The notes beneath the pieces are model-generated. The model saw only the letters and a list, made by a program, of their open reading frames with translations, was not told where the DNA came from and made no database searches. A program made the translations under genes and the position numbers. A stretch of DNA of 62,228 bases from a virus, in IMG/VR virus record IMGVR_UViG_3300040806_003816, positions 1 through 62,228 of that record, one strand, 5' to 3'. Below, in pieces: positions 10,084 through 62,228 of the stretch. Position 1 is the stretch's first letter. Every line of letters starts with the position of its first letter.

Positions 10084-10416
10084 ATGGCACAACAAAACGA
10101 TAAATTGAATTTCGAACAACCAGATAATGAGTTGACTAGAATTGCCACTGGTGAACGTGGTAAATTATTTCCTAGAAATGACTTTTCTCCGGAAACTGAA
10201 TCATATTCTGCACAACATCCAGATGCGGTTGCAGATGGAGACGATCTTGGAAGAGGTACTTCCAAATTTTTAGATATATACAATCAAAAAGGTGGTACTA
10301 AGACTGATATTAATGAAAGAAATAGTGAAATAAAAGTTAACAGATATTCTTCTGGTAATCCTTATTATGTAACTAGTGAACGTGGTGGTAATGCAAGACC
10401 TTTGGCTAACGTATGA
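10084..10416 (+). CDS. Hypothetical phage protein
   Basis: This 110-residue hydrophilic protein begins MAQQNDKLNFEQPDNELTR and ends with a Gly/Arg-containing tail. It has no hydrophobic segment and no enzyme motif. It starts one base after the previous stop and its stop overlaps the next ATG (ATGA). The low complexity and composition suggest a small virion or core protein, which is inference only. Confidence 0.5.
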   Translation: MAQQNDKLNFEQPDNELTRIATGERGKLFPRNDFSPETESYSAQHPDAVADGDDLGRGTSKFLDIYNQKGGTKTDINERNSEIKVNRYSSGNPYYVTSERGGNARPLANV

Positions 10417-10793
10417 AGTTAATTGAAACTATAAAATTATTAATTACAGAAGCAGCTAATGTTTCTGATATTGAGCGCTCAATTAAAGATAAAATAATTA
10501 CACAAATACAGTATGATGGGGATGAACCGGGAGGTAAGGGTTTAAGAACTATTGAACCTGTCTGTCTAGGTAGGAGTAAGAAAAATAATTTAGTCTTGCG
10601 AGCATGGGACTATGAGGGTTCATCTCACACTGCCGCTACTGGTGAACAACCTTTACCGGGATGGAGATTATTTAGAGTAGATAAAATATTTACATATAAA
10701 CCAACTCTTGATAACTTTTCAGAAATGAGACCTGGTTATAACCCAAATGGTGATAACAGTATGAATAGTGTCATTGTAAACTCAAAATTCTAA
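10413..10793 (+). CDS. Single-domain WYL-like protein with capsid-targeting-type leader
   Basis: This 126-residue protein starts MKLIETIKLLITE-A. The LITE-A segment closely resembles T4 internal-protein leaders, which gp21 cuts after (I/L)-x-E. Residues about 25-100 match the WYL-domain pattern: a Y-D-G turn, R-T-I-E-P-x-x-L-G, an L-R-A-W-D-Y-E-G strand and a final R-L-F-R-V-D-K-I. WYL domains usually sense ligands or nucleic acid in bacterial regulators and accessory proteins of defence systems. Here there is no HTH, so it is a stand-alone domain. A packaged, injected regulator is possible but unproven. Confidence 0.65.
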   Translation: MKLIETIKLLITEAANVSDIERSIKDKIITQIQYDGDEPGGKGLRTIEPVCLGRSKKNNLVLRAWDYEGSSHTAATGEQPLPGWRLFRVDKIFTYKPTLDNFSEMRPGYNPNGDNSMNSVIVNSKF

Positions 10794-10797
10794 AATC

Positions 10798-11340
10798 ATG
10801 GATCAATCATTAATGCAAAAATTAGCAATATCTAAACAAATAATGGATGCTCAAGAAGGTATTCCAAACTCAGGAAAAGGTTTACCTAACTATAATATAC
10901 CTCAAAATATTGTTAACGAAAATCAAGCACCTAAAAATGTTCCTGTTGATCCGATGAGTAAAAGCTTAAATGAAAGTTCAATTATGGGTTCGAACCTACC
11001 TGATGAGATAAAAAAACTTATGATTGATAATCCGATTCAAAAACCAGACCAAGGTGGTGTCACACTTAGTAACGATATAATTGAAGGTGCTGCTAAACTA
11101 ATTAATCAAAATAAAAAGTCACCTCAAGCTCAAATATCAAAAATTAAAGAAAATGACGTCGATTTAAGAAATATGATTCGAGATATAGTCAGAGATACTG
11201 TAAAAGATGTTATCAAAGAAGAATTGTCTGACAAGATAATTTTAAGTGAATCGGGTAAAGACACAAAAGAAAAGTTAGTATTCAAAGTAGGGAATCATTT
11301 ATTCGAGGGTGTCGTAACAAAAATCAAAAAAATTAAATAA
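10798..11340 (+). CDS. Hypothetical virion-type protein
   Basis: This 180-residue protein has an Asn/Pro/Gln-rich, probably disordered first half and a helical, charged second half (RDIVRDTVKDVIKEEL) ending in a small beta-rich segment, KLVFKVGNHLFEGVV. No enzyme motif was found. The C-terminal pattern, in which a helix is followed by a strand beginning LVFKVGN, is of a type seen in T4-like phage structural proteins. It closes the operon that starts at 9023. Function unknown. Confidence 0.5.
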   Translation: MDQSLMQKLAISKQIMDAQEGIPNSGKGLPNYNIPQNIVNENQAPKNVPVDPMSKSLNESSIMGSNLPDEIKKLMIDNPIQKPDQGGVTLSNDIIEGAAKLINQNKKSPQAQISKIKENDVDLRNMIRDIVRDTVKDVIKEELSDKIILSESGKDTKEKLVFKVGNHLFEGVVTKIKKIK

Positions 11341-11390
11341 GACTTTTTACTTAACACTTTTTTTTTACTATACTTTAAAAAAGTATATGA

Positions 11391-12593
11391 ATGAGTAAGA
11401 TTAATATTTTGGTGCTGCCTTCTGACACTACTGGAGTCGGAAAATTTAGGTCAGTTGATCCACATACAAAACTACAAGAACTTTATGGTGATGATTTTAA
11501 TGTTGATATAGATTACAATCCTCAAGTTAATGACCCCGACTATTGGAAAAAATATCAAATAGTTCACTTCCACCGATCGATTACTAGAAATCCGGATCAA
11601 AGTGCGCGTGTTATTAAAACACTAAATCAATTAGGGATTATTACTATTTGTGATCTAGATGATTATTGGTTACCAACAAAAGAACACCCAGCACACGCAA
11701 TTGTTATGAAAAACGGAATTCACAAAGGAATTCAGGAAAGTTTAAAATTAGCGCAATTTGTGACGACCACAACGGATATTTTTAGAAAAGAAATAGAAAA
11801 ATTTAATAAGAATGTTTTCGTACTACCAAACTGTATTGATCCAAATGAAGATCAATTTAATGAGAAAACAACAGAAAGTGATGTTTTAAGATTTGGATGG
11901 TTAGGTGGGTCATCACACTTACATGATATACAACTTCTTTCAGGTATATCAACGTTAGATAGTGTAAAAGACAAGTTTGGATTTGTTCTATGTGGATTTG
12001 ACACTAGAGGTTCAGTAACTGAAATAGGTCCAGATGGTACAGAAAAGGTTAGAGACATTAAACCATTAGAGACTGTCTGGTATGACTATGAAAAAATTGT
12101 AACAAACAACTTTAAACACGTAAAAGAAGATCATAAAGAATTCCTTCACAAATTTGTAAATGAAGAATATTCTGGTGATGACCAATCATATAAAAGAGTC
12201 TGGACATTACCTGTGACAAGTTATGCAAAAAATTATTCTAAATTCGATGTATCACTCGCACCTATCAAAGATCACATCTTTAATAAGATGAAGTCTCAAT
12301 TAAAAGTCATCGAAGCAGGATTTTACAAAAAACCGATTATTGCATCAAATTATGGACCGTATACTATAGATTTGAAACACAGTTTAGATAAGGGTAATTT
12401 TGTTGATGGTAATGCATTACTTGTTGATCCTAAAAGACCTAGAGATTGGGCTAAATTTATGAAAAAACTAATCGATAATCCTTCTTGGGTTGAAGATTTG
12501 GGTGAAAGACTATATGAAACAGTCAAAGACAAATATGATCTAAATAACATGACTAAAGTTAGGGCTGAAATATATAAAAGTTTAGTAAAATGA
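11391..12593 (+). CDS. Glycosyltransferase, GT-B fold, GT4-like
   Basis: This 400-residue protein has the architecture of GT-B glycosyltransferases. An N-terminal Rossmann half carries VHFHRS and DLDDYW. The C-terminal half carries FGWLGGSSHLHD, a donor-side segment SQLKVIEAGFYKKPIIASNYG, and GNALLVDPKRP before a final helix. The ...KVIEAGFYKKPIIAS... segment corresponds to the nucleotide-sugar-binding region of GT4 enzymes. It opens the glycan island and ends in an ATGA overlap with the exonuclease gene. Donor and acceptor cannot be told from the sequence. Confidence 0.8.
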   Translation: MSKINILVLPSDTTGVGKFRSVDPHTKLQELYGDDFNVDIDYNPQVNDPDYWKKYQIVHFHRSITRNPDQSARVIKTLNQLGIITICDLDDYWLPTKEHPAHAIVMKNGIHKGIQESLKLAQFVTTTTDIFRKEIEKFNKNVFVLPNCIDPNEDQFNEKTTESDVLRFGWLGGSSHLHDIQLLSGISTLDSVKDKFGFVLCGFDTRGSVTEIGPDGTEKVRDIKPLETVWYDYEKIVTNNFKHVKEDHKEFLHKFVNEEYSGDDQSYKRVWTLPVTSYAKNYSKFDVSLAPIKDHIFNKMKSQLKVIEAGFYKKPIIASNYGPYTIDLKHSLDKGNFVDGNALLVDPKRPRDWAKFMKKLIDNPSWVEDLGERLYETVKDKYDLNNMTKVRAEIYKSLVK

Positions 12594-13291
12594 TAGACCA
12601 CTCTTTAAATAAAATTTTATTCTTTGATATCGAAACTGTCGGTATGACACCAGATTTGAATAGTTTAGAAGAGAACTATCCTGAACATCATAGACTTTTT
12701 ATGAATTATATGGATTGGTTCAAAAGAAAATATTCAGATACTGATGGAATGACCAGTGATGAAGTTTATGAATCCAAATCTGCTTTAGTTCCTGAGTTCG
12801 GAAAAATTGTTTGTGCAAGTTTTTCATTTGTAACCCCTAAAGGGGAAACACACACCCAAACTTTTAAAAATGACAATGAAAAAGATTTACTTATGCAGAT
12901 AAAAGATCTTTTAGATAAAGTTTTTGATTTGGGATTTCATTTGTGTGGTCATAATATAAAAAGTTTTGACATACCATATTTGGGAAAAAAGTTTTTAAGT
13001 AATTCTATAAAACCTCCAAAAATCTTACCTTCATATTCCACAAAACCGTGGGAAATGAAAGCTATTGACACTAAAGAATTATGGGGATTTAATTCAAACT
13101 ATGGACTTTCATCATTGGATCTAATGAGTGTTTCTATGGGACTCGATAGTCCCAAAACGGGAAGTGTTACAGGTAAAAGTGTACATTCAAATTATTGGTA
13201 TGATGGAAAGTTAGATGAAATATCTAAATACTGTGAAGAAGATGTTAAAAGTTTATTAGAAATAATTACAAAAATTTATAAGTTAAAATGA
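12590..13291 (+). CDS. DEDDy-type 3'-5' exonuclease
   Basis: This 233-residue protein has the three exonuclease motifs of the DnaQ/PolB-exonuclease superfamily: FFDIET with D13 and E15, HNIKSFDIPYL with D127, and YCEEDV with Y214 and D218. That is a complete DEDDy active site. No polymerase domain is attached, so it is a free-standing exonuclease, probably acting on single-stranded DNA in replication or repair. It overlaps the preceding glycosyltransferase and the following dut gene by 4 bases each, so the three are translationally coupled although functionally unrelated. Confidence 0.85.
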   Translation: MIDHSLNKILFFDIETVGMTPDLNSLEENYPEHHRLFMNYMDWFKRKYSDTDGMTSDEVYESKSALVPEFGKIVCASFSFVTPKGETHTQTFKNDNEKDLLMQIKDLLDKVFDLGFHLCGHNIKSFDIPYLGKKFLSNSIKPPKILPSYSTKPWEMKAIDTKELWGFNSNYGLSSLDLMSVSMGLDSPKTGSVTGKSVHSNYWYDGKLDEISKYCEEDVKSLLEIITKIYKLK

Positions 13292-13875
13292 TTGAAAAGA
13301 TTAAAGAATTAAAACGAGTTATGGATTCATTAAGTTCTTCCAATGAAGATTTTGAGTTTGATCCTACACAATTAATTAACTCGTTAGGATTAGACATGGA
13401 AGAAATAGAGAATACGTTTAATCAAGAATTCAAAAGAAAATTAGAAGTACAATATAGTTTCGATTCTGATAATTCAGAACCGATGTACCATTACAATACA
13501 GATTCAGGATTTGATTTAAGATCAAATGAAAACCACTCCCTTCTACCTGGAGAAAGAAAATTAATACCAACAGGTTTAAGAATTGATATCCCTAATAGAT
13601 ATGAAATTCAAGTAAGACCTAAAAGTGGTTTGGCATACAAAAAAGGATTGACCGTCTTAAATACTCCGGGTACGGTAGACCAAGGATATACGGGTGAGAT
13701 CAAAGTTATCCTTATAAATTTAAGTAACGAGACTCAACAAGTGAGTGTCGGAGATAAAATCGCACAAGCGGTACTTTGTCCTGTTATTCAAGGAGGTGAA
13801 ATAGAGTTAGTCAAAGTGAACAAGATAGAAGATAAAGATAGAAACTCTAATGGTTTCGGGTCAACAGGTAACTAA
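13288..13875 (+). CDS. dut: dUTP pyrophosphatase with N-terminal extension
   Basis: All five trimeric dUTPase motifs are present: I DSGFDLRS (72-79), II RPKSGLA (110-116), III LNTPGTVDQGYTGEIKV (124-140, catalytic D131 and Y134), IV VGDKIAQAVL (154-163) and V RNSNGFGSTG (185-194). The enzyme converts dUTP to dUMP, which limits uracil in phage DNA. The protein is 195 residues because about 65 helical, acidic residues precede the core. Usual cores are about 140-150 residues. The role of the extension is unknown. Confidence 0.95.
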   Translation: MIEKIKELKRVMDSLSSSNEDFEFDPTQLINSLGLDMEEIENTFNQEFKRKLEVQYSFDSDNSEPMYHYNTDSGFDLRSNENHSLLPGERKLIPTGLRIDIPNRYEIQVRPKSGLAYKKGLTVLNTPGTVDQGYTGEIKVILINLSNETQQVSVGDKIAQAVLCPVIQGGEIELVKVNKIEDKDRNSNGFGSTGN

Positions 13876-13877
13876 AA

Positions 13878-15302
13878 ATGTATACAATAGGATTTTCTAC
13901 TCGATCAATTGATGAAGGGTATATTCAACACATAAAAAAAACGGTAGGACCTAAGAATGTTGAGATTATACCTTTTGAAAACAAAGGGACTCATTCTTTG
14001 TCAGAAGTTTATAATATCATTCTAGAAAAAGCTAGTTTCGATACGGTTATACTTATCCATGATGATTTAATCTTTGAAACTAAAAATTGGGGTTTCAAAT
14101 TAAATAATGTCATTAAAAAAAATGAAGAGTATGGAATTATTGGATTAGCCGGTTCAAAATATGTACCAGAAAGTGGTATGTGGTGGGAAGTACCTGAAAC
14201 TATGTATGGTATTGTAAATCATCAAAACGAGAATAATAAGTGGGAAAGTAGGTATTCTAGAGAAATAAAAAATAGAATAGAGTCTACTGTCATGATTGAT
14301 GGTTTATTTATGGTAGTCAGAAAATCAAAAATTGAAGAAAATTTTGATGAGAGTGTTGATGGGTTCCACTTTTACGATATGAATTTTTGTGTACCGAATT
14401 TTTTAAAAGGGGTGAATATAGGAATAACAACTGCGGTTAGAGTAACCCATTTATCAGTCGGACAGACTAATGAATCGTGGGATAAAAAAAGGTTGGATTT
14501 TAGTGAAAAATATTCTGATGTATTACCTTTGAACTTAAATTCTTTTGATGATCTTGATACATTTATTATCGTACATGATGAAAATATAATAGTTGAATAT
14601 GAAAGACACGAAAAGTATTATGGTATACCTAATTTAAAATACCTTTTTGTTGGTAAAGGTCCAATAGAAAAAATATCATCTTACGAAAATGTTATTATTT
14701 GTAGAAATTTAGAACATAATATTGAACAATATCCTAATATAAATTCTTTCACCGCTTGGTATGCTATTTGGAAGAATAATCTTTCAAATAAAAAATATAT
14801 AAGTCTTTTGGAGTACGATACAATTATCAATAATCAATCATTTCAAAAATTACCAAAACATATGGAAAATGGTGTGGATATGATAAGATTTCTACCCAGA
14901 CCTTGTAATGAACATCATTTCATAAATGATCCAAGGTGGGTAAGTGAATTATTCTTATCCATTAGTAAAGTCTACAAAAGAAATATGGAGGATGAAATAC
15001 GTAGGTCTTTACAGGACAATCCAAATATGTCTTGGACTTCAACATCTAATAGTATTTTTAAAAAATCATGTTTTGATCAGTATATGAATTGGTTCCTACC
15101 ATTATTGCCAGATATTTTAAAGTCTAATACTGCTGGTCATCAACACGAAAGATCACTTACATTTTTTACATATATGAAAAATAAAAAATTACTTGTTTTA
15201 CCTGATATGATACACCACTTCCAAATGGACTCTCACGGAACGCAAGATCATGTTGTTGATAAAAAAATTATGATAGAAAAACTGATACATAATGAACAAT
15301 AA
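13878..15302 (+). CDS. Two-domain glycosyltransferase-like protein
   Basis: This 474-residue protein looks like two GT-A-type halves. The first half (about 1-215) has TIGFSTRS at the start and LIHDDLIFET, a DxD-like acidic motif, followed by LAGSKYVPESGMWW and DGLFMVVRK. This matches glycosyltransferase-like family proteins that report the sugar with an HDD motif. The second half (about 225-470) contains an ISLLEYDT segment and a conserved H-x-H-E-R-S region (HQHERSLTFF). It ends 11 bases into the next gene. Whether both halves are catalytic is not clear. Confidence 0.65.
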   Translation: MYTIGFSTRSIDEGYIQHIKKTVGPKNVEIIPFENKGTHSLSEVYNIILEKASFDTVILIHDDLIFETKNWGFKLNNVIKKNEEYGIIGLAGSKYVPESGMWWEVPETMYGIVNHQNENNKWESRYSREIKNRIESTVMIDGLFMVVRKSKIEENFDESVDGFHFYDMNFCVPNFLKGVNIGITTAVRVTHLSVGQTNESWDKKRLDFSEKYSDVLPLNLNSFDDLDTFIIVHDENIIVEYERHEKYYGIPNLKYLFVGKGPIEKISSYENVIICRNLEHNIEQYPNINSFTAWYAIWKNNLSNKKYISLLEYDTIINNQSFQKLPKHMENGVDMIRFLPRPCNEHHFINDPRWVSELFLSISKVYKRNMEDEIRRSLQDNPNMSWTSTSNSIFKKSCFDQYMNWFLPLLPDILKSNTAGHQHERSLTFFTYMKNKKLLVLPDMIHHFQMDSHGTQDHVVDKKIMIEKLIHNEQ

Positions 15303-15966
15303 TATACTTTATGTAATTTTACATGGATCTATGAATCCTGAAAGATGGGAAAACGTAGTTAATACATGGGGTCAAGGTAAAAACTATCTATTTTACTCAG
15401 ATCATCATGATCCTGAAAATAGAATATTTAAAGTATCCAATAGAACTGATTATTTATCTAACGAAGACAAACATGTCAATGTATGGAAGTTAATTGATAC
15501 CCATAAACTCTATCAAATATATGAGTGGTTTTTTTTCTGTGATGACGATACTTTCGTAAATACAAAACTTTTAGAATCAAATTTGAACAATTTTGATAAA
15601 AACAAAATACATGGTCATGTGATGCAAAATTACTCCCAGGACCCATTCTTAAATTACTGTTCTGGTGGTGCAGGTTACTTAATCAACAAAAAAAGGGTTG
15701 AATATATATCAAAAGGTATTAAGTTTTTGGATACTGGTTATTCAGACGTGACTTTAGGGATGTTTTGTAGAGAAAATAAAATAAAATTTGTCAATGACGA
15801 TAGATTCAATCCTCATGATGAAAAAGGAAAAGACCGAATCGGGGTTGAAACTCTAGATGATAGATATAACAATATAATAAATCCTATTGAATTCTTTACC
15901 CATCATTATGTAAAGAATTTTAATCAAATGAATGACTTATATAAATTAATGAATATTATAAATTAA
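15292..15966 (+). CDS. Fringe/GT31-like glycosyltransferase
   Basis: This 224-residue protein has the landmarks of Fringe and core-1 galactosyltransferase-type GT31 enzymes: a W-x-x-V-x-x-T-W-G segment near residues 19-28, the metal-binding triad FFCDDDTFVN with D84-D86, the Y-C-S-G-G-A-G-Y-L-I motif at 122-131, and SDVTLGMFCRE. These are typical of animal and protist enzymes and less common in phages. There is no membrane anchor, so it would act in the cytoplasm. Sugar and acceptor are unknown. It overlaps the previous gene by 11 bases. Confidence 0.75.
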   Translation: MNNNILYVILHGSMNPERWENVVNTWGQGKNYLFYSDHHDPENRIFKVSNRTDYLSNEDKHVNVWKLIDTHKLYQIYEWFFFCDDDTFVNTKLLESNLNNFDKNKIHGHVMQNYSQDPFLNYCSGGAGYLINKKRVEYISKGIKFLDTGYSDVTLGMFCRENKIKFVNDDRFNPHDEKGKDRIGVETLDDRYNNIINPIEFFTHHYVKNFNQMNDLYKLMNIIN

Positions 15967-15971
15967 TATAT

Positions 15972-16637
15972 ATGAATTACGTAAGTTTTAGTTTGTGGTC
16001 TAAACAAACAATTTATAATGAAGGGGCAATCAGAAACGCTGAAATTATTCAGGATATTTATCCTGGGTGGAAAATGGTAGTTTATTATGATAATACTGTA
16101 CCAACTGAAACAATTGATAAATTAAATGAACTAGATGTATTGACCATCGACATTACTGATAAAAATCTATACGGTATGTTCTGGAGATTTTTAGCATCAG
16201 ATATTGATGACTGTGAATATGTTGTCTTTAGGGATTGTGATTCTAGAGTTTCTATAAGGGAAAAAATGGCAGTAGACGAATGGATAGACAGTGGAAAATC
16301 AATCCATGTAATGAGAGATCATCCTGCACATGCGATTCCATATGGAAACGACCGTCCTGGAATTTTAGGTGGAATGTGGGGAATAAAATCTAAAATTTTA
16401 CCTCTCACCGATATGGTTTCGAAATGGCACGAGTCAAAACCAATAGGTTACGGAGCAGATCAAATGTTTTTGAAATCCGTTTATGAAAGTTACACAAATG
16501 ATATGGTAATTCATGATGAGTTTGGTAATGGAAGACCCTTCCCAATCGAAAGGGATCCTGAAGGTCGTTTTATAGGTGAAAGAATTGATGAAAATGATTT
16601 ACCATTAACCAATGATCACATGATATTGAAAAAATGA
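15972..16637 (+). CDS. GT-A-like glycosyltransferase candidate
   Basis: This 221-residue protein starts NYVSFSLWSKQTIYNEGAIRNA, here split as NYVSFSLWSK and QTIYNEGAIRNA. It carries VVFRDCDSRVS, whose D-C-D resembles the DxD metal site of GT-A enzymes. It then has an HVMRDHPAHAIP segment, GGMWGIK, and GADQMFL, a pattern seen in family-8-like and other retaining transferases in which a late D-Q-x-x-L completes the site. The exact family was not identified. Its stop overlaps the start of the sugar kinase gene. Confidence 0.6.
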   Translation: MNYVSFSLWSKQTIYNEGAIRNAEIIQDIYPGWKMVVYYDNTVPTETIDKLNELDVLTIDITDKNLYGMFWRFLASDIDDCEYVVFRDCDSRVSIREKMAVDEWIDSGKSIHVMRDHPAHAIPYGNDRPGILGGMWGIKSKILPLTDMVSKWHESKPIGYGADQMFLKSVYESYTNDMVIHDEFGNGRPFPIERDPEGRFIGERIDENDLPLTNDHMILKK

Positions 16638-17377
16638 TTTTAGTTATTGGAGACTCATGTATCGATAAATTTGTTTATGGGAAATGTAACCGGTTATGTC
16701 CTGAAGCGCCTGTACCAGTTTTCTTACCTTCAGATTATACAACAAATCCAGGTATGGCTGCAAATGTAAAAGAGAATTTGAGTTCTTTCGGTCTTGAAGT
16801 CGATCTGGTAACAAATCAGAGTACAATACACAAAATTAGATATGTTGATAAGTCAAGTAATCAACTGATAATAAGAGTAGATGAAAACGATAAATGTGAT
16901 CGGATAGATAGATCAATTCTATATGAAAAATTAAATCTTCAGTGGGATGCGGTTGTCATTTCTGATTACAATAAAGGTTTTTTAAATGAAAAGGATATAC
17001 AATACATAAGTGAAAATGTGAAGTGCCCAGTATTTTTAGACACAAAAAAATTATTAGGTAAGTATTGTGAAAATATTGATTTTATCAAGATCAACGAAAC
17101 TGAATATAACAAAAATTTAGAGTTACATGGAAACTTAGAATTTTTAGATAAAAAAATGATTGTCACTTTAGGAGGTAAAGGATGTCAATACGATAATGTA
17201 ATTTATGAAACAGAACCTATTAATACTTTTGATGTAAGTGGTGCTGGTGATACATTTCTAAGTTCATTTATTTATTTTTATTTAAATACTAAAGATATTC
17301 CAAATTCAATTATTTTTGCAAATAAAAAAGCTAGAGAAGTTGTTCAGATAAAAGGAGTTGCAACAGTAAAAAAATGA
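16634..17377 (+). CDS. PfkB-family sugar kinase, HldE kinase-domain-like
   Basis: The 247 residues match the kinase half of HldE/RfaE. The start VIGDSCIDKFVYGKCNRLCP reads like GD-x-x-x-D-x-y-x-x-G-x-x-x-R-x-x-P, with PEAPVPV at 23-29. NPGMAANV at 38-45 is the substrate-side GG/NP region. VTLGGKG lies at 177-183 and FDVSGAGDTF at 199-208, with catalytic D206. Family kinases are usually about 300-315 residues, so this one is shortened. The nucleotidyltransferase half of HldE is absent. Phosphorylation of heptose-7-phosphate or a related sugar is the best guess. Confidence 0.75.
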   Translation: MILVIGDSCIDKFVYGKCNRLCPEAPVPVFLPSDYTTNPGMAANVKENLSSFGLEVDLVTNQSTIHKIRYVDKSSNQLIIRVDENDKCDRIDRSILYEKLNLQWDAVVISDYNKGFLNEKDIQYISENVKCPVFLDTKKLLGKYCENIDFIKINETEYNKNLELHGNLEFLDKKMIVTLGGKGCQYDNVIYETEPINTFDVSGAGDTFLSSFIYFYLNTKDIPNSIIFANKKAREVVQIKGVATVKK

Positions 17378-18060
17378 ATATAAACTACATACACCAACAT
17401 TTAGGATTAGGGGATCATTTAATTTGTAATGGTTTAATAAGGAATTTAATTAGAGATTACGATAAAACATATTTGTTTGTTAAACATCATAATTTACCTA
17501 GTGTCCAGTTTATGTTCAGAGATCTTTCTAATTTAGAATTGATTGCGGTAAATGATGATTTCGGGGTTAACGACTACATTTCCAAAAATAATTTAAGTCA
17601 AAAATTAACCATAATAGGTCACCATAATACTTTTTGTTGTGGACCAATGTGGGATGAAAATTTTTATAAAAGTATGAATGTTGACCATCAAAAAAGGTGG
17701 ACTGATTTTTATGTTGAAAGAGACTTTATAAAGGAGAATAATCAGTATGAAAAATTAAATCCTAATGATGAAAAATATGCATTAATACATAATAAACATA
17801 GTGGGGGATTAGATGGAATAAATTATGACTTAATTGGTAATAATTTGAAAAGGATATTTGTAGAACAAGCCGATACAATATTTGATTATCTCAAACTAAT
17901 AGATAACGCAGAAGAAGTTCATTGTGTTAACTCATCATTCTTTCATTTAGTAGACTTACACACAACCACTCCAAATCAGAATTTAGTTTTTCATAAAAAT
18001 TACAAAAGTAGAGATGATGATTGGGGAGTATGTGTTTCTGATAAATGGAAAGTAATTTAA
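17374..18060 (+). CDS. Putative GT-B-like protein of the glycan island
   Basis: The 228 residues begin INYIHQHLGLGDHLICNGLIR. This resembles the first strand-loop-helix of heptosyltransferase/GT9-like and related GT-B proteins, in which a G-L-G-D-x-L loop follows strand one. A late VHCVNSSFFHLVDL segment fits the acceptor/donor-binding helix of such folds. It overlaps the kinase gene by 4 bases. Family membership is uncertain because the protein is short, and it may be only a sugar-binding relative. Confidence 0.5.
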   Translation: MNINYIHQHLGLGDHLICNGLIRNLIRDYDKTYLFVKHHNLPSVQFMFRDLSNLELIAVNDDFGVNDYISKNNLSQKLTIIGHHNTFCCGPMWDENFYKSMNVDHQKRWTDFYVERDFIKENNQYEKLNPNDEKYALIHNKHSGGLDGINYDLIGNNLKRIFVEQADTIFDYLKLIDNAEEVHCVNSSFFHLVDLHTTTPNQNLVFHKNYKSRDDDWGVCVSDKWKVI

Positions 18061-18063
18061 AGT

Positions 18064-19927: not shown

Positions 19928-19928
19928 T

Positions 19929-20612
19929 ATGACGAATATAAGTAAAAAAAAACAAGAAATAAAATCAATTGTCGGACGTCAACCGAAACAAAAATTTTTA
20001 AGTAAATCACAAAAAGAATATTACGATATCCTCAAAGAAAAAGAAATTGTAATATGTTCAGGACCCGCGGGAGTAGGTAAATCCTACATTTCAATGAAAG
20101 CCGCAGTCGATTTATTATTAGATCCAGAAAATGATTATGAAAAAATTATAATCGTAAGACCTGCAGTTGAAGCTGAAGAAAAATTAGGGTCATTACCTGG
20201 AAATTTGGAAGAAAAATTAGATCCATATATATTTCCTTCATATTACTTACTAAATAAAATAATTGGAAAAGAAAAGAGGGAAAAACTTAAGGAATTCGAA
20301 TTTATCGAAGTCTTTGCATTGGCATATATGAGAGGTATGAATATAGATAATGCCATACTAGTTTTTGAAGAAGCACAAAACACAACAAAAAGTCAAATGA
20401 AATTATTACTGACTAGAATTGGATTTAATTCAAAATTTTTCATATCTGGTGATATTGAACAAACAGATAGATTTAGAGATAAAACACAATCAGGTCTTTA
20501 TGATGCCATAAACAGGTTCGATAACATAGAAAATATAGGGATTTACAAATTTGATAAAAGTAATATCATTAGAAATCCTTTGATCACACAAATTTTAGAT
20601 AAATACGAATGA
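19929..20612 (+). CDS. phoH: PhoH-like ATPase
   Basis: This 227-residue P-loop protein has Walker A GPAGVGKS at 45-52, the PhoH-specific VRPAVEAEEKLGSLPG segment (77-91), Walker B ILVFEEAQN at 143-151 and the sensor-like FISGDIEQTD (171-180). This is the PhoH core found in many marine and T4-like phages. Its biochemical job in phages is unsettled; an RNA-related ATPase or helicase is the usual proposal. It starts one base after gmd and overlaps the following HAD-like gene by 4 bases. Confidence 0.9.
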   Translation: MTNISKKKQEIKSIVGRQPKQKFLSKSQKEYYDILKEKEIVICSGPAGVGKSYISMKAAVDLLLDPENDYEKIIIVRPAVEAEEKLGSLPGNLEEKLDPYIFPSYYLLNKIIGKEKREKLKEFEFIEVFALAYMRGMNIDNAILVFEEAQNTTKSQMKLLLTRIGFNSKFFISGDIEQTDRFRDKTQSGLYDAINRFDNIENIGIYKFDKSNIIRNPLITQILDKYE

Positions 20613-51844: not shown

Positions 51845-51852
51845 ATATTTAT
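51845..51852 (+). promoter_or_regulatory. Putative late promoter element ATATTTAT
   Basis: Exact motif, 15 bases before the ATG at 51868. The gap also contains AAAGGGGAT, which may act as a weak ribosome-binding site. Confidence 0.5.
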
Positions 51853-51867
51853 TTAAAAAAGGGGATT

Positions 51868-53096: not shown

Positions 53097-55871
53097 TTAG
53101 TTTATGTTTTTCCTGTAAATTTCTAAAATATTTTCTAATCCTGAAAAAGTTTTGTTTACAGTATCGGTAGACTCAGAAACATTACCATGGTACTTGTTGA
53201 AGAAATCTAACCACTGTCCATTTTCCATAAAAACCCAATCTCTATTTCCACCATTTACTACTTTTTTAAGTTGTAAATCATCCTTTGTTTCTTGGTCTTT
53301 TTTCTCACCTAAAACGTATAATAAATTATTTTCTTCTTGTAGTTGTGATTTTCCTACCGAGAATTTTGGGTCATCACCAAACCTACATGCCATTTTGTTC
53401 GATAATTCATTTGAGATTTTCTTTTTATCAAAGTCGAAACATTTTCCAGTATATAAATCATTACCCCATAGTTGATCACATTCACTTATCGAGTTTCCAT
53501 TTTCACATCTTTTACAGAAAAAACTTTCTGATAACGTTTCAACACAACGACTGCTTTCAGTATCTGGAGTATCTGGGTTACTTGGTGTTGGTGGAGTTGG
53601 ATCATCAGGTTGAGTTGGTTCTGCAGATGATCCATCTCCAGTTGCACTTTCAGAATCATCTGTACCTGGTACTGGTGCGGTTCTTTGTTCTAATAATACA
53701 TTAATTAAACCTTCATTTGATTCATTTACTGACCAACTACTTACAGGACTACAATAATCCGTTGCTAAATTATTTTCTCCTCCTTCTCCAAATTTATAAT
53801 TACCTCCACTTCCAAAGTCCATATACCATCTTCCACCACTAGGCCTCAATACACCTTTATAGTCACCACATTTGAAGTATACTTTCCCGTTTTCAACTTT
53901 TAGATATTGATTCACTAGATTTTTTAATTCACTACTAGTTTCAGATATTCTTAGATCAGACGCGATATCGCCAATTATTCCACGTAGTTCAGGGCTTGTT
54001 CTGATTGTATTAAATGATCCTGAAGAAGATCTAGGAGTGTCATTATCTATCTCTTGATCTATTTCTCTTTCAGCCTGTCTTAAATCGTCTTCTAATTCTT
54101 CTTCCGTTTGATTCCAACGGTCTTCCATATTGTCCGCAGTTTCTTGATTTAGAAACCCTTTCCTAACTTCATTTAGATAATAAATCAAATCGTCAATTAA
54201 TGTCGGTGATCCTTTCATAACTTCTCTCGTTAAATCACCACTAAAATCATCAGTACTTTGCCCTAAAAAATCTTCTAACATTTCTTTTAAAAAAGGTGAA
54301 GACTCACCTTCTTCCATGATGTCCATAGCCCAAGCTAACCAAGGTAAAAATGATTTATCATTTGCTATTTTTTTACAAGCTTCATTTTCCGGATTTCTAC
54401 CGGAAGATAAACAAGAATTTATAATGTCCCTACCTTCTTTACCTGAAACATAAAAAGCAAATGAATTTCTCATTGTCTCAGCAAAGGCATATAAAATTCT
54501 AATTTTGATTAGTCTACCTAAAAGTGCAATCAAAAATGATGCTCTCGCAGCTTTTTTACCACCAGCCCTTACAAGTTCAGCATATGCGGGATTATCTTGT
54601 GTTGGTACACCTCTATAATCTCCATACACCGCTCTTTTCCACCATGCTTCACTAGGGAAAGATTCTTTAAAACCTGTTATGGTAGTATCTAGAATTTTAG
54701 ATCTACCTAAACTTACGCCTTTTAAACTAGATCTTAATTGTTTGAGAAATGGTCTAAAGGTATTCGACATGAAAGCTTCTTTCAAAACTAAAGTTGTAGG
54801 AAATCTATCACCATAAAGTAATTTTGATATTCCTAAAAAATCTCTGAAATTGTTTGTACCCCCTTTCAGGTCGTTATATAACTTTTCCAAAGACCTAATT
54901 CCCGGATCTTCTATAGTTCCTCCTCTTCCTCTTGGAGCTTGATCAATAACAAGTTCTAGTTGTTCTCTAACACCATCCAAAGCAGACGACTGGTCGTCTG
55001 CTAATTTTAGAATATCCTCGTTAATTTTTTTTCTGAGTCTAGCTTTAATTGTTGGATCTTTTGTCTCAGCGAATTTTCTTGAATTACGTAATAATCTTTC
55101 CGCCCTTTCTTTAACTTTAGTTGATGGTACCTTAAAAACGTTCCTTAGTCTTGCTCCGATACCTCCCTCTTGTTTTAATAATTGGTCAATCTCTTCATCC
55201 GAATAAGATGGAACATTAACCCACGAAGATTCTTCAGTAAAATCCTCCATATCTGCGATATCTTTTTCAGACACATTTGGTTCAGGTGAAGGAGTTTCAG
55301 GTTCGTCAGCTTTTGGAGTTGTTGTATCGTCAGTTGCTTTAGCTAGTTCGGAGGTTCTTTTTTCAAATCTTTCTCTAGTTTGTTTATTGACTTCCCTTAA
55401 GATCTGATTGTCAAGTACCTCACCTTTAGATTGGGTTCTTAATACTTTATTTCCAAATTCATTTACCATTCTAGCGGCAGCACTTTCGGGAGTAAATCCA
55501 GATTCTATCATTTCATCTAAGAATTTTTTCACTTCTGCATTTCTGAAAAAATCGTTGACTAGTTTCGAAACAAATCCAGGATCTTTCAATATTTGCGCTG
55601 TTATCACATCAACCAGTTCTGTATTATTTAACTTTTTAGCTGTTGTGACAATATCATTTAAAGTTTTTCTTTTTGCTGCGGTTGAAGTTGACGCATCGGC
55701 AACTTGATTTTCTAACTTTGTAATTAAAGGTGCAAGTTCATCAATACTTCTAGCACCTCTGGAAATAAGAAATTGTAATAAGTCATCAATATATGCTTGT
55801 TCAACGATGACTTTTTTATTAACACCCATTATTTCATGTATTCTTTTTATATTATCCTTTTCTTTCATCAT
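53097..55871 (-). CDS. Large internal/ejection protein candidate with capsid-targeting-type leader
   Basis: The 924 residues start MMKEKDNIKRIHEIMGVNKK, then VIVE-Q, giving a putative cut at residue 24. The protein is helical and charged, with a Pro/Thr-rich acidic linker near 190-215 and a basic helical region. A hydrophobic segment near 445-475 (ASFLIALLGRLIKIRILYAF) could be a membrane helix. There is a second linker rich in Pro/Asp near 725-765 and a Cys-containing C-terminal domain. No enzyme motif was recognised. The size and membrane-like helix suggest an ejected protein. It overlaps the next gene upstream by 20 bases. Confidence 0.6.
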   Translation of the reverse strand: MMKEKDNIKRIHEIMGVNKKVIVEQAYIDDLLQFLISRGARSIDELAPLITKLENQVADASTSTAAKRKTLNDIVTTAKKLNNTELVDVITAQILKDPGFVSKLVNDFFRNAEVKKFLDEMIESGFTPESAAARMVNEFGNKVLRTQSKGEVLDNQILREVNKQTRERFEKRTSELAKATDDTTTPKADEPETPSPEPNVSEKDIADMEDFTEESSWVNVPSYSDEEIDQLLKQEGGIGARLRNVFKVPSTKVKERAERLLRNSRKFAETKDPTIKARLRKKINEDILKLADDQSSALDGVREQLELVIDQAPRGRGGTIEDPGIRSLEKLYNDLKGGTNNFRDFLGISKLLYGDRFPTTLVLKEAFMSNTFRPFLKQLRSSLKGVSLGRSKILDTTITGFKESFPSEAWWKRAVYGDYRGVPTQDNPAYAELVRAGGKKAARASFLIALLGRLIKIRILYAFAETMRNSFAFYVSGKEGRDIINSCLSSGRNPENEACKKIANDKSFLPWLAWAMDIMEEGESSPFLKEMLEDFLGQSTDDFSGDLTREVMKGSPTLIDDLIYYLNEVRKGFLNQETADNMEDRWNQTEEELEDDLRQAEREIDQEIDNDTPRSSSGSFNTIRTSPELRGIIGDIASDLRISETSSELKNLVNQYLKVENGKVYFKCGDYKGVLRPSGGRWYMDFGSGGNYKFGEGGENNLATDYCSPVSSWSVNESNEGLINVLLEQRTAPVPGTDDSESATGDGSSAEPTQPDDPTPPTPSNPDTPDTESSRCVETLSESFFCKRCENGNSISECDQLWGNDLYTGKCFDFDKKKISNELSNKMACRFGDDPKFSVGKSQLQEENNLLYVLGEKKDQETKDDLQLKKVVNGGNRDWVFMENGQWLDFFNKYHGNVSESTDTVNKTFSGLENILEIYRKNIN

Positions 55872-57198
55872 ATAAACTTTTTAATTTAGTTGATGTCTCT
55901 TTTCCAACAATACCATCTAACCCATCTAAATCATAATCAATTTGAAAATCAATTACAGCGTCTTGTGTAACTTTTCCAAAATCACTATCTATGCCTGATT
56001 CACCTAGATCATAACCTAGTGTATTTAACATTATTTGAATGTCTCTAACAAATTTACCCTTTGATCCTAATTTGGCTATTTTATCTCCCGATAATAAATC
56101 ATTAAAGGTTGTCTGTTGTTTTGTACCTTGTTCTAAGTTAGACCATCTATTGTCAATCAAATCGAACGTAATGTTATCGTATGTATCATTGAAACTATCT
56201 TGAATTTGATCTGCGATATCACTATCTGTAAAATCTATGTCACTATTTTCGATAATTTCTATGATCAATTCTTGTTCCTTACTTTTATCTATATTACCAT
56301 CAGAATCAGTCAAACTTAACCATAGATCATAAAGTCCATCGATTATAGTTGGTCCTAAAGTACCATCATATAACATGTCCATAATCTTCGAGAATTCTGA
56401 CTTATCTCTCATTCTTTTTCGGTATCCTTCTGGAGCTGCTAAAAGTGTCCATAATAAATCTACACTGACGGCTATACGACCTATTTTAACAACTAATTGA
56501 AGACCCTTACCACTAACTTTTGCTAAAGTTCCTAGAGTCCACAATAATCCTTTACTGACCATATGTTTATTTAGAAATTTCAATGAGTTTCTAGCACTAG
56601 TCTTTAATATTTCAGGTGCATTTTCTACGAATGATTTTGAAAATCTTTGCCATAATTCACCTTCTAAATCAGTTAAGACTTTATTATTGGAAATTTTTTG
56701 TAATAACGCTGGTAACTTTTTTAATTCCTGTTCAGTAATTTCTTTACCGGCTTTCTTACCAAGTGCACTCACTAACTCACCACCTGGTATCAATGAGAGT
56801 GCTAACATCATACTACCCATATAAGGATCTTTTTCCTGAACGAAATACGCAGCGGCATCAGCAACACCAATAGTAGTACCTGCAGCTAACATAGCAGCCC
56901 CTATTGGTGCTCCAACACCTGTAGCAACAGCTAATATACCACCAATTGTAAGTCCTATTTCTAAGTAACCTGCCAAATCATGATTCCATTTAATATTATC
57001 TAAGGAATCCTTACCGTACATTTTATCTTCATATTCCTTATCAGTCATATTAAGTGCACGTGCATTTCTCCTTGATATCCCTAGGTTTCTGTCCGAAACA
57101 GAGTCAGGTTTTTGTTCTAATAGAGTTTTAGACCTATCATAATTGATAAGTCTATTCATCTCACTGACTTGTGTTGATATTTTTTGGTCGTAGGTCAT
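55852..57198 (-). CDS. Membrane-active peptidoglycan-binding virion protein candidate
   Basis: The 448 residues start with a leader ending T-L-L-E-Q (putative cut after residue 28). A Gly/Ala-rich hydrophobic region, about 75-145 (LEIGLTIGGILAVATGVGAP, then IGAAMLAAGTTIGVADAAAY), resembles membrane-inserting hairpins. The C-terminus (about 378-445) matches the PG_binding_1 fold: LGSKGKFVRDIQIMLNTLGY, then DSDFGKVTQDAVIDFQ and GIVGKETSTKL. A protein that both inserts in membranes and binds cell wall fits a DNA-ejection role. Overlaps the 924-residue gene. Confidence 0.7.
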   Translation of the reverse strand: MTYDQKISTQVSEMNRLINYDRSKTLLEQKPDSVSDRNLGISRRNARALNMTDKEYEDKMYGKDSLDNIKWNHDLAGYLEIGLTIGGILAVATGVGAPIGAAMLAAGTTIGVADAAAYFVQEKDPYMGSMMLALSLIPGGELVSALGKKAGKEITEQELKKLPALLQKISNNKVLTDLEGELWQRFSKSFVENAPEILKTSARNSLKFLNKHMVSKGLLWTLGTLAKVSGKGLQLVVKIGRIAVSVDLLWTLLAAPEGYRKRMRDKSEFSKIMDMLYDGTLGPTIIDGLYDLWLSLTDSDGNIDKSKEQELIIEIIENSDIDFTDSDIADQIQDSFNDTYDNITFDLIDNRWSNLEQGTKQQTTFNDLLSGDKIAKLGSKGKFVRDIQIMLNTLGYDLGESGIDSDFGKVTQDAVIDFQIDYDLDGLDGIVGKETSTKLKSLYDERKG

Positions 57199-57216: not shown

Positions 57217-57672
57217 TTACCAAAGAGGATTTCCTTTACCCCTGGTGATACCATAAGAATCTTGCCATTTAGAATTTTGATCAATAGGATTTGCGGGTCC
57301 TCTAGAAACTCCACTGTCCCAAGTTGAAATCCCAGCATTAGTTGCATCTGAATCACCTGTTGTATCTCCTCCACCATCTTCTTGTTCTGCCATTTCTTCA
57401 CCATACACATCAACGTCACCACCATCCGAATCGAAATTATATGCTGGTTTTATTCCCAATAGTGAATCTAAACTAAAATCTACTGGTTCTTCGAATTGTT
57501 CTGGACCACCAGAATCGAAGTTATAACCAGATTCCACATCTGATACATCCATATCATCAGTTTCTTCTTCTTTTATTTTGTTTTTAGACTTTGATTCCTT
57601 ATCTTTATAAAGTTGATTTTCACCCTCAGTCATTAATCCCTTAATACGGGAAATTTCGGTTTTTAAATTCAT
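57217..57672 (-). CDS. Acidic Gly/Asp-rich protein with capsid-targeting-type leader
   Basis: ATG 57672 is preferred to the longer frame because ATATTTAT ends four bases upstream and the leader MNLKTEISRIKGLMTE-G starts there. The 151 residues continue with a Lys/Glu-rich part and two copies of a YNFDSGG/YNFDSDGG motif in an acidic Gly/Asp-rich region. The end is Trp-containing (SKWQDSYGITRGKGNPLW). No domain was recognised. It starts the minus-strand run of leader-bearing genes and lies 15 bases from the divergent lipoprotein gene. Confidence 0.6.
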   Translation of the reverse strand: MNLKTEISRIKGLMTEGENQLYKDKESKSKNKIKEEETDDMDVSDVESGYNFDSGGPEQFEEPVDFSLDSLLGIKPAYNFDSDGGDVDVYGEEMAEQEDGGGDTTGDSDATNAGISTWDSGVSRGPANPIDQNSKWQDSYGITRGKGNPLW

Positions 57673-59059: not shown

Positions 59060-59410
59060 TTATTGATTCGAATGATAAGCGTCGAGAATTTCTTCACAGT
59101 GTTTCTTAGAATCACATTTTCTCCAAACACCTCCTTTCTTATTATTCATTACAACCCAACCACCATCTTTCTTTCTGATACATCCAGCTTCGGTGTCAGC
59201 ACAACCTTTACCGTCTTGTTCATTAACAATATTGGTGTACTCCTTTACATCACCTTTACCATCGACAGTAATTCCTTTTTTGTCTGTGGCTAAATCTTCT
59301 TCTTCTAAAGGAGTCAAGTTATCAGTTTTTTGTAACATTACTTGTTTTTCGAAAGCAACTCTGTGACTTTCCAAAATAATTTTTCTTTCTTCTTCAGTTA
59401 TTCTAATCAT
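59060..59410 (-). CDS. Small protein with capsid-targeting-type leader and Cys-rich end
   Basis: The 116 residues start MIRITEEERKIILE-S (cut after residue 14 expected). The middle is Asp/Lys-rich. The C-terminal half holds two Cys pairs in KGCADTEAGCIRKKDGGWVV and VWRKCDSKKHCEE, which may bind zinc or form a small fold. No family recognised. It belongs to the leader-bearing group on the minus strand. Confidence 0.55.
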   Translation of the reverse strand: MIRITEEERKIILESHRVAFEKQVMLQKTDNLTPLEEEDLATDKKGITVDGKGDVKEYTNIVNEQDGKGCADTEAGCIRKKDGGWVVMNNKKGGVWRKCDSKKHCEEILDAYHSNQ

Positions 59411-60101: not shown

Positions 60102-60112
60102 ATTAATAGATC

Positions 60113-60730
60113 ATGAAAATATTAATATCAGAAACTCAGTACAGAACTTTAATTGTTGAATCATCAAAAGAAAAGATTATATCAACAACTCAAGAAAACT
60201 TTCAGTCTTTTTTATCTATACTAAAGACAGCACAAGAACAATTGAAAGATTCGTTTAGATTCCTAATAACTTACGGAGCAGGTATTGGTGCATTAGTAGG
60301 TCCTGTAACGCAATATTTACAAGGTGAATTTCCTACTTTAAATAGAGAACAAATAGCATCTTTATTTATCATGGCAGTTTCTATAGTATTTTTTGAAAAA
60401 CAGAATCTAAAGGTTAATAAAGAATGGTTTGAAACAAGAACTTTGGGGGATGAATTAGAAACCGCAATTGAATATCTAGAAAGAATGAAAGCTAAAGTGA
60501 GTAATATTCTTAAAATTACTGGGTCCTCGATTTATAGAAGTATGGATATATTATCTTACACATTTCTCTTACCAATATTTTCAGTTTTGTTGAATTTAAT
60601 AACAGACCAAAATGTAAACAGTGATACTTTAAATGATATTATAGAACCATTAGTCTCTTCTGGACTAATTACATTGAGTGGTGCCGCAATCAAAGAATTT
60701 ATTGATAGACTTGTAAATAAGTTACAATAA
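60113..60730 (+). CDS. Membrane protein with capsid-targeting-type leader
   Basis: The 205 residues begin MKILISETQYRTLIVE-S (cut expected after residue 16). Hydrophobic stretches lie at about 48-70 (FLITYGAGIGALVGPVTQYL), 83-98 (ASLFIMAVSIVFFE), 147-166 (SYTFLLPIFSVLLNLI) and near 185. A cleaved, packaged membrane protein could help the genome cross the inner membrane, as proposed for other ejection proteins. No catalytic motif. Confidence 0.6.
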   Translation: MKILISETQYRTLIVESSKEKIISTTQENFQSFLSILKTAQEQLKDSFRFLITYGAGIGALVGPVTQYLQGEFPTLNREQIASLFIMAVSIVFFEKQNLKVNKEWFETRTLGDELETAIEYLERMKAKVSNILKITGSSIYRSMDILSYTFLLPIFSVLLNLITDQNVNSDTLNDIIEPLVSSGLITLSGAAIKEFIDRLVNKLQ

Positions 60731-60766
60731 TTTTTTTTTCTGAACAGTTTTTTGTATATTAGTAAT

Positions 60767-61153
60767 ATGAAAAACGTATTAGTCCTCTTACTCTCTTTTA
60801 TTTCTCTACAGTCAATTGCTCAGAATGACTTTGTTATTTCATGTTGGGTATCAATTAATGATCTGGAAGATGTTTATATTGATAGTCTTACTCAACATTA
60901 TGATCTTAACATTTCTGATATGATGTTTATTCATGATGAAGATTCACTTTACAAAGAGTTGACACATGGTGATTATTTTTGTACAGGTTACCACTGTTTT
61001 AAATATGGTAATGACAATGTAACATCATTTGTCAAAGAAGAATACGGTACACCAGAATACAAGATGGATTCTAAGTATGTTTTTATCGAGACTAGAGAAT
61101 ATACAGATGAAAAGTATGGTCGAAATAGAACGACCATCTATATCTTTAATTAA
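60767..61153 (+). CDS. Small secreted/periplasmic protein
   Basis: ATG 60767 is preferred over the TTG frame at 60752. The 128 residues start with a signal peptide, KNVLVLLLSFISLQSIAQ, with predicted cleavage after A-Q, a common Bacteroidota form. The mature part is acidic, with two adjacent Cys (FCTGYHCF) and a beta-rich C-terminus (YVFIETREYTDE). Function unknown. With the lipoprotein gene it makes two phage genes for exported host-envelope proteins. Confidence 0.65.
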   Translation: MKNVLVLLLSFISLQSIAQNDFVISCWVSINDLEDVYIDSLTQHYDLNISDMMFIHDEDSLYKELTHGDYFCTGYHCFKYGNDNVTSFVKEEYGTPEYKMDSKYVFIETREYTDEKYGRNRTTIYIFN

Positions 61154-62228
61154 TTTGACTAGTGTACTTGGGAAGTTTCACTTCAAATCGTCTGTCCATT
61201 GCAGTTTGCTTCGAGTCATGATTCTTCTTACCGGGTTTCCAACAATTTCCACTATCACAATTCTCACCCATACCTTTTGGATTGAATTTTAGATCTGGAT
61301 ATTTTGCACTCAACAACTCAGCAACTCTTTCAGCTCTTTTTTGTGATAAACAAAGGTTGTAGTCTTTTCTTTTTGATCTATTAGAACAAGGACTAAATGG
61401 CCAACCCTGACTTGGTCTAGGACCTTCTGGATCATCATCACGGGATGAGAAACCAAGTATATTTATTGGATTTTGTTTCAAAAACTCCTTGTAATCTGGT
61501 TGTTCCTCGAATATTGCATTTAGTTCTTGAATTTTCTTATCAAATTCTGATTGACCTTGAGGTAAGAAATCAACTGAGTTGAACACGAATGGGTTTCCGA
61601 TTCTAAATTGTATTTCAATTGGTCTTCTTACTTGTTTTTCTGCGGGTCCAAACTCCTCCGCTCTCGGACCCATACCATTTGGTTCTAAAAAGTAACAACC
61701 TTTTCCTTTTCCAGGTTTTCCTTTTTCACACCAATATTGACCAAATCTAATTTGAGGAGAATCTACACGTCTGTTTTTTGGTAATCCAGTACCCATCTCT
61801 GTTGAAGATTTTTTGACACAAAGTAATCTTATTGTAGGATATTTGATATTTGGATTTTTTACATTTCTTGGTATATCTAAAACATAAAAACTTTTTCCTG
61901 TATAAAGTGATACTCCACCGGCCAATGCTGACTGTCCTTGACTACCTCTTTTACAAGGTTTCTGATCTGGATATTTATCTCTATCAAATTGAATTTCATT
62001 CGCAATCTGATAATTTTTGAAACCTGGTGTCCCTTCTCCAACGGCAGTTCCAGTGGTGATATCATAAACTACACTTCTAGCATTTCCAATATCAGTATAC
62101 TTCTTAGGTCCTGAAGTATCATTTGCAACTTCTAGAGAATTACCATTACCATTATCTGAAATTTTAAAAATCAGATCTCCACCGAGCTTGAATCTGAATT
62201 CAGCTCTTTTATTTTCTTGTTCTAAAAT
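61146..62228 (-). CDS. OmpA-like peptidoglycan-binding protein, N-terminus cut by window edge
   Basis: The frame is open from the window edge to the stop at 61146; 360 residues are seen and the start is missing. The first visible codons read ILE-QENKRAEF, which again looks like a cleavage site for gp21. The C-terminus has an OmpA-like pattern: INILGFSSRDDD, then LCLSQKRAERVAELLSAKYP, FNPKGMGENC and a TAMDRRFEVKLP end. This fold binds diaminopimelate peptides in peptidoglycan. It overlaps the secreted-protein gene by 8 bases at its 3' end. An outer-envelope or virion role is likely. Confidence 0.7.
   Translation of the reverse strand: MLEQENKRAEFRFKLGGDLIFKISDNGNGNSLEVANDTSGPKKYTDIGNARSVVYDITTGTAVGEGTPGFKNYQIANEIQFDRDKYPDQKPCKRGSQGQSALAGGVSLYTGKSFYVLDIPRNVKNPNIKYPTIRLLCVKKSSTEMGTGLPKNRRVDSPQIRFGQYWCEKGKPGKGKGCYFLEPNGMGPRAEEFGPAEKQVRRPIEIQFRIGNPFVFNSVDFLPQGQSEFDKKIQELNAIFEEQPDYKEFLKQNPINILGFSSRDDDPEGPRPSQGWPFSPCSNRSKRKDYNLCLSQKRAERVAELLSAKYPDLKFNPKGMGENCDSGNCWKPGKKNHDSKQTAMDRRFEVKLPKYTSQIN

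Follow-up and report, generated by a model that had tools for sequence, protein, structure and literature searches.

Internal proteins of bacteriophage T4 are guided to the prohead core by propeptides of 10-19 residues, and gp21 cuts past the motif L/I-x-E; gp23 loses 65 residues, and, according to the accessible text of a review, such capsid targeting sequences (CTS) may let T4-like phages package various proteins (PMC9026906). The ejection proteins of phiKZ and SPN3US are described as carrying propeptides that are cut past a glutamate by the prohead protease, and two diverged SPN3US proteins share an identical N-terminus of 15 residues (PMC5694885, accessible part). For phage P1, several internal proteins (Dar) are reported to be co-ejected with the DNA, and DarA to be processed by the P1 protease (PMC12810830, accessible part). 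Here we analyse a stretch of 62,228 nucleotides from an uncultured virus (IMG/VR record IMGVR_UViG_3300040806_003816, positions 1 to 62,228; the window), several genes of which begin with a short leader ending in (I/L/V)-x-E. Related genomes carry the same tag, in four dialects, on unrelated proteins, and it ends at the expected protease cut, which makes it probable that these proteins are packed and delivered to the next host.

The T4 CTS (of IPI, IPII, IPIII and Alt, cut by gp21) is likewise a short N-terminal leader that precedes unrelated proteins and ends in (L/I)-x-E, and in both T4 and the window it is accompanied by an S77 protease and by a gp23 that contains such a site (PMC9026906). 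The leaders of the present study differ in that they fall into four dialects of about 14-38 residues with up to 34 leader open reading frames (ORFs) per genome, and they are known from sequence alone. A glutamate cut by the prohead protease is shared with phiKZ and SPN3US, but the phiKZ motif is given as S/A-x-E (PMC9026906) and the giant-phage propeptides are described as mostly far longer (PMC5694885). The Dar system resembles the present one in its multiple co-ejected internal proteins and in protease processing, but its accessible account gives no common short leader on unrelated proteins (PMC12810830). The best reading is that the leaders follow the logic of the T4 CTS but differ from it in sequence, come in four dialects and serve what appears to be a far larger set of cargos. 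No earlier description of the shared leader was found in the literature; subscription papers and bioRxiv lay mostly outside the scope of that search, and an earlier notice is possible.

A shared leader in four dialects

A preliminary description of the window had marked (I/L)-x-E sites near the N-termini of a number of genes. The bare motif is weak evidence for a cut site: [ILV]xE occurs within residues 12-30 in 29 of 64 window genes (45%) versus 30% of 2,186 internal windows, and in Flavobacterium phage immuto in 63 of 186 genes (34%) versus 25% internally. Beneath it lies a stronger signal which that description had missed, a shared targeting motif before the glutamate. This is a real leader and not a product of chance, and it occurs in four dialects: MKKxIRLTESDLxRIVKRVIxE (class I), MKILITExQxxxLxxE (class II), MKKFIITEEEKxxILxxH/Y with LxE further on (class III) and MNLQEEIxRIKSMMGLINE (class IV). 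To our knowledge, these sequences are unlike the T4 propeptides.

Twelve leaders of G002, a relative of 158 kb, served to train a matrix, which was then applied to every position in other genomes. Of the 20 matches in G001 with a score of at least 10, 12 fell within the first 12 residues of an ORF, including most of the highest-scoring ones; the top matches in the window were the leaders of 59410, 60113 and 30847 (genes are named by their start, which on the minus strand is the highest base). Leader patterns were also counted in eight genomes, namely the window, immuto, five whole relatives and 400 kb of a sixth. They marked 100 ORF starts (4,337 N-terminal ATGs examined) versus 4 of 7,093 internal ATGs. 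Part of the development of these patterns had used the same genomes, and the scan with the G002 matrix is the cleaner cross-test. By genome, the leader ORFs numbered 34 in G021, 22 in G014, 16 in G002, 13 in G001, 9 in G022, 5 in the window, 1 in G003 and 0 in immuto. A second matrix, built from classes I and III, gave 28 N-terminal versus 1 internal match in G021 and 16 versus 3 in G014, and some of its 'internal' matches sit right at an in-frame ATG. All 32 distinct class IV ORFs have their motif at most 8 residues from the ATG.

Degenerate DNA patterns retrieved at least 120 stretches from IMG/VR for one form of the leader, 58 for a second and 47 for a third. Wider patterns, applied to the loci of the first two scans, yielded 263 leader ORFs among the matches listed (205 of class I, 58 of class III), and their sequences after residue 28 form 186 cargo clusters (BLASTP, 1e-3), 142 of them singletons. 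Cluster representatives, the 140 longest of 174 with at least 90 residues, one per cluster, are alike only in the class I consensus, with practically none beyond it. Information in class I amounts to 3.6 bits at the T-E anchor and 2.47 at the last glutamate, then drops to 0.84 (with Q, S or N preferred), 0.27 and 0.15; conservation in the 263 leader ORFs collapses directly past the final glutamate.

Most cargos match no family. Pfam, at 0.001, assigned nine families with one member each among the 140 representatives scanned (PG_binding_1, Tae4 amidase, SLT, LysM, abhydrolase, UPF0227 and three of unknown function), and PHROGs at least 26 among the matches listed, again with one member each, including endonuclease VII, endolysin, transglycosylase, baseplate hub and tape measure. 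Further cargo is shikimate-kinase-like above the cut-off; DHH-like (0.0012) and ParB-like (0.017) matches fall below it. The leader is modular. The C-terminal cargo domain of the L178 protein occurs leaderless in Pelagibacter phage HTVC023P, where it starts at residue 2, too early for a leader to precede it.

The strict class I core pattern was present in 8 of 14 class-IV-bearing contigs versus 0 of 14 random contigs. It had no match in the huge GenBank phages LR756502 and LR756508; the L178 leader protein matched LR756502 at residues 5-84. A tblastn search of GenBank phages with a 23-residue leader consensus and with a 75-residue leader protein returned no match, nor did a 212-residue class II protein searched against phages, and a PDB sequence search with a leader consensus gave a single match at E 0.3.

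Some arrangements of these elements are recorded as side observations. Leader-like copies lie deep in long ORFs, at residue 450 of G001 241396-243396 (minus strand) and at residue 273 in G014 (QLSEEDMIDLIEKIIEEQ, QLTEDELIDLIEKIVNEQ); they are possibly internal cut sites of a polyprotein. In G058, G067 and G071, two class I cores stand on opposite strands 153 bp apart, identically in all three contigs. A small Cys/Lys domain around YPSAYANGYAVQVCKG is found behind leaders of unlike length in L178 (2562-3050), G002 (51541-52041) and G001 (110015-110269), and also leaderless in a pelagiphage.

The final glutamate as a predicted cut site

Judged from the sequences, the final glutamate of the leader looks like a protease cut site. 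This residue is not part of the anchors by which classes I and III were defined; at the expected distance past the anchors, [LIVMF]xE is present in 204 of 247 class I leaders (83%, control 12%) and in 53 of 69 class III leaders (77%, control 18%), 27 of the latter 53 having Q after the glutamate. For class IV the figure is 69 of 74 with LxE, the scan pattern having partly demanded the E. The same boundary is seen where related cargo stands behind different leaders (a hyphen marks the predicted cut): VINE-GLHDTSW occurs behind a class I and behind a class IV leader, E-SGIR behind a class I leader of 21 and a class II leader of 16 residues, and one cargo has both VIQE-QSEH and LLIE-ASEH.

Of 80 relatives retrieved by gp21, 18 have a class II leader on the gene immediately upstream of gp21. 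The length of these 18 leaders shifts by one helical turn (MKILITEKQLKRLSE-AN, MKIKITESQLQKLRKVISE-AN); the glutamate stays beside the cargo, and the junction E-(A/S/G)N is unchanged despite the shift. A matching site is found in the capsid protein, where LINE-A at residue 60, ahead of a variable stretch, is present in 30 of 31 aligned rows, some of which are one record fetched twice; immuto has IVSE-A at the aligned position. Residues 5-13 of the 10413 product show a predicted local distance difference test score (pLDDT) below 50 in its AlphaFold2 model, in which the confident fold begins past the glutamate.

Proposed loading of cargo and competing explanations

We consider it probable that the leaders are capsid-targeting propeptides cut by gp21 and that the cargo is packed in the capsid and ejected with the DNA. 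The conserved start of the leader, either hydrophobic-x-hydrophobic-(T/S)-E with an amphipathic helix or an EIxRIKxMMG helix, would bind the prohead core during assembly. A gp21-type protease would then cut past the final (I/L/V)-x-E, and the mature cargo would stay within the capsid and leave it with the DNA at ejection. Genes would become cargo by gaining a leader, and a single genome could therefore encode packaged proteins by the tens, unrelated to one another. The proposal of the preliminary description, packaged cargo that bears a gp21-type cut site, is retained as the best explanation, for a set larger than was proposed; three of its ten main sites and one of its three weaker ones fail. 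With less assurance, we also lean towards a wider proposal, in which a general system of protein addressing operates in large phages of the T4 type, whose hosts are probably Bacteroidetes. Its four dialects could be acquired by any gene and would bring into the capsid well over 100 families in all and, in each genome, tens of unrelated proteins (as many as 34 leader ORFs were seen). Virions would thereby deliver a repertoire of effectors, including a lone WYL domain (in the window and six relatives) that could interfere with BrxR and CapW.

Several results weigh against packaging by way of gp21. Although 28 of the 37 records that carry leaders and reach 80 kb (near-identical records all counted) encode Peptidase S77, which favours the link, the other nine lack it. 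A T4 portal is missing from eight of these nine, and the ninth has part of one at its contig end; seven have no terminase match and two a weak one. They are apparently genome pieces from which the head module is missing, which would account for the lack of S77; another head type is a possible alternative. S77 alone discriminates only moderately, because it is also present in 6 of 14 random contigs of like size and in immuto, which has none of these leaders. In the gut-type genome G022, the second matrix gave 9 N-terminal versus 6 internal matches. LxE is present in just 51 of 85 class II leaders (control 18%). Finally, among 19 cross-class pairs scored by script, both glutamates fall in one column in 4, which represent 3 cargos; of the other 15, 8 align otherwise and 7 have no predicted site on one side.

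One alternative, which we regard as unlikely, is that the leader is an uncut docking tag to another phage structure, such as the tail, a membrane assembly site or the replication centre, with the final glutamate as a mere helix end. Most information indeed lies in the N-terminal half of the leader, a clear LxE is often missing from class II, and baseplate hub and tape measure, with one family each, are among the PHROG matches obtained for leader proteins. Against such a tag, conservation ends exactly at the glutamate, the junctions of cargos that occur behind both class I and class IV or both class I and class III leaders fall there, and the capsid protein bears a like site.

That the leader proteins are one fast-diverging paralogous family with no modular tag is highly improbable and largely refuted. 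The leader genes of G021 are clustered, as paralogues might be (13 of 33 neighbours less than 1.5 kb apart versus 5.3 expected; 5,000 permutations, highest 14). We rejected a paralogous expansion because the cargo folds are unrelated (amidase Tae4, SLT, LysM, PG_binding_1, abhydrolase, endonuclease VII, P-loop kinase, WYL) and the leaders swapped, the same cargo occurring behind different ones; the domain that HTVC023P shares with the L178 protein likewise speaks against it. Chance matches in a proteome rich in E, I and L, a view favoured by the modest excess of the bare motif in the window and by sites that homologues do not retain, leave the shared leader and its N-terminal placement unexplained and are scarcely conceivable for the leader set as a whole, given the matrix, the information drop and the ATG counts, but they stand as the explanation for the sites of 38612, 32191, 53060 and 59410.

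If packaging by capsid-targeting leaders is true, the leader would be a sequence label that marks, from genomes alone, those proteins of uncultured large phages that enter the cell with the DNA, and the virion-injected content beyond DNA would become directly testable. It would also yield a candidate list of anti-defence and cell-wall effectors and suggest a tag to load proteins into capsids.

Sites, head module and other genes of the window

The genes and leaders marked in the preliminary description are all present where it had placed them (Table 1). Each predicted glutamate was compared with homologues of the rest of the protein, up to 9 distinct ones per gene. Seven of the ten main sites hold (10413, 30648, 30847, 47668, 55871, 57198 and 60113) and three fail. 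At 38612, LTE is retained in 1 of 9 homologues compared (78 found); at 53060, LKE-G is not retained as such in 3 homologues (LQE in 1 of 3), and an LxE about 10 residues downstream is retained in 3 of 3; at 59410, ILE-S is absent from its 3 homologues, though the targeting motif fits. Among the weaker sites, 57672 holds, 44392 does so only at another glutamate, residue 38, and 32191 is not kept by homologues. For some of the retained sites the comparison is narrow. At 30648, L009 retains the leader and the product of KNV73_gp084 (111184-111654) of the cultured phage immuto has ILSE-KK behind an unlike N-terminus (VISE-KK in the window), so that support comes from one relative; 47668 and 55871 are supported by one homologue each. 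At 30847, E-KTDYSKEK is retained behind diverged leaders in 2 of 4 homologues (L007, L009), the other two being unaligned there. The glutamate of 60113 is retained in 6 of 7 homologues; the AlphaFold2 model of this product is poor (pLDDT 47.9).

Table 1. Leader-bearing and head-module features of the window. A hyphen after a leader marks the predicted cut.
Feature	Positions	Strand	Basis or remark
Leader MKLIETIKLLITE-A (10413-10451), then lone WYL-fold domain	10413-10793	+	all 7 sequences of the alignment have L10 and E13
Class I leader MKKIRITETELIELIEKVISE-K (30648-30710), small Lys/Cys protein	30648-30842	+	2 homologues
Class I leader MKKFRMTESQLVELIKQIIDE-K (30847-30909), small basic Cys protein	30847-31158	+	homologue comparison
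gp23-type major capsid protein, LINE-A at residue 60, propeptide 34603-34424	32852-34603	-	PF07068 1.3e-74
gp21-type prohead protease (Peptidase S77)	36431-37147	-	PF03420 4.9e-26; phrog_207 2.3e-46
Ribosomal protein bS21 gene, between portal and protease	37713-37901	+	PF01165 1.5e-8; opposite to head module
Conserved protein, prohead-core gene slot between portal and protease	37887-38612	-	[LI]xE-rich; N-terminal LTE not kept
T4-type portal (gp20)	38627-40477	-	PF07230 2.6e-77
Terminase	40508-42277	-	head module gene
Longer leader ending IGE-S, residue 38 (44392-44279)	43535-44392	-	E in 8 of 9 homologues compared; differs from the site first marked
Class IV leader MYNKILNEIKEIKHMMGLTE-S (47668-47609)	47186-47668	-	one homologue, G001 127325-127834, retains INE-S
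Class IV leader MMKEKDNIKRIHEIMGVNKKVIVE-Q (55871-55800), 924-residue protein	53097-55871	-	one homologue, L375, with LLNE-Q
Leader ending YDRSKTLLE-Q (57198-57115), protein with C-terminal PG_binding_1	55852-57198	-	TL(x)E-Q in 4 of 4 homologues compared (5 found)
Class IV leader MNLKTEISRIKGLMTE-G (57672-57625)	57217-57672	-	E-G in 5 of 9 homologues compared; other 4 with other N-termini
Class III targeting motif MIRITEEERKIIL, cut site uncertain	59060-59410	-	top window match of G002-trained matrix
Class II leader MKILISETQYRTLIVE-S (60113-60160), helical protein, probably membrane-bound	60113-60730	+	E16 invariant in 5 of 5
ORF open at contig end, begins ILEQ; remainder of any leader beyond record	61146-62228	-	truncated by contig end

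The WYL domain that had been proposed for the 10413 product is borne out by its fold, with Z 10.8 and a root-mean-square deviation of 2.0 over 81 residues to BrxR (7qfz_A). In that comparison the first 13 rows are BrxR, PafBC, CapW and DriD (Z 10.8 to 7.5), followed by Sm and Hfq folds at Z of about 7. Foldseek lists BrxR and PafBC in rows 1-11 (best E 5e-3, probability 1.00, none at or below 1e-3). Against the profile PF13280 the product scores 13.8 bits, under the cut-off of 21.8. Homologues are present in six relatives, and none was found in immuto at 1e-5; the alignment of seven sequences in Table 1 omits one longer homologue, L299. WYL regulators are reported for the defence systems BREX and CBASS. 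One may speculate that an injected lone WYL domain interferes with regulators of this kind, BrxR and CapW among them. Pfam likewise supports the peptidoglycan-binding domain suggested for the 57198 product (PF01471 4.5e-12, 46.4 bits with a cut-off of 23), whereas the suggestion of an OmpA-like protein at 61146-62228 could not be upheld (PF00691, 14.5 versus a cut-off of 27.2 bits on 61146-61925).

Profile searches place a T4-type head module on the minus strand of the window and bear out the gp21 homologue that had been noted there. The product of 37887-38612 contains 12 [LI]xE versus 5.1 expected; the gp22-like product of 34630-36081 shows no such excess (11 versus 12.4 expected). Of 14 records tested, each related or leader-bearing, 9 likewise have a bS21 gene, and in 8 of these 9 it scores above the cut-off. 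Phages of freshwater Bacteroidetes (predicted hosts) are described with a bS21 gene on the opposite strand in the region of TerL, portal, protease and capsid (PMC9723584); the window shares this position and strand, and the accessible account of those phages mentions neither leaders nor packaged cargo. When the capsid protein was compared with isolates, immuto was among the nearest (42% identity over 59% of the query), and Microcystis phage Mel-JY01 showed 33% identity over 95%. The host of the window virus is probably a member of the Bacteroidetes, because the bS21 arrangement matches that of predicted Bacteroidetes phages and immuto is among the nearest isolates.

The window further contains a phage-borne transfer-messenger RNA (tmRNA) gene at 51410-51796 (plus strand; ARAGORN tag GETFAKLQTLGLIRTEEVYAA, Rfam RF00023 99.3 bits). 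It lies downstream of two genes, one at 48270-50285 that encodes a ClpA/ClpB-like double AAA protein and one at 50334-51377 for an M42-like peptidase; genes for Hsp20 (47730-48107) and an HNH protein (51868-52371) are close by. The region 30-2585 is strongly repetitive and, read on the plus strand, gives VGVNVGVSV-like repeats. A run of plus-strand genes at 11391-24338 has N-termini that, judged by eye, resemble those of glycosyltransferases and nucleotide-sugar enzymes; within it, PhoH (19929-20612) and dUTPase (13288-13875) are confirmed by Pfam.

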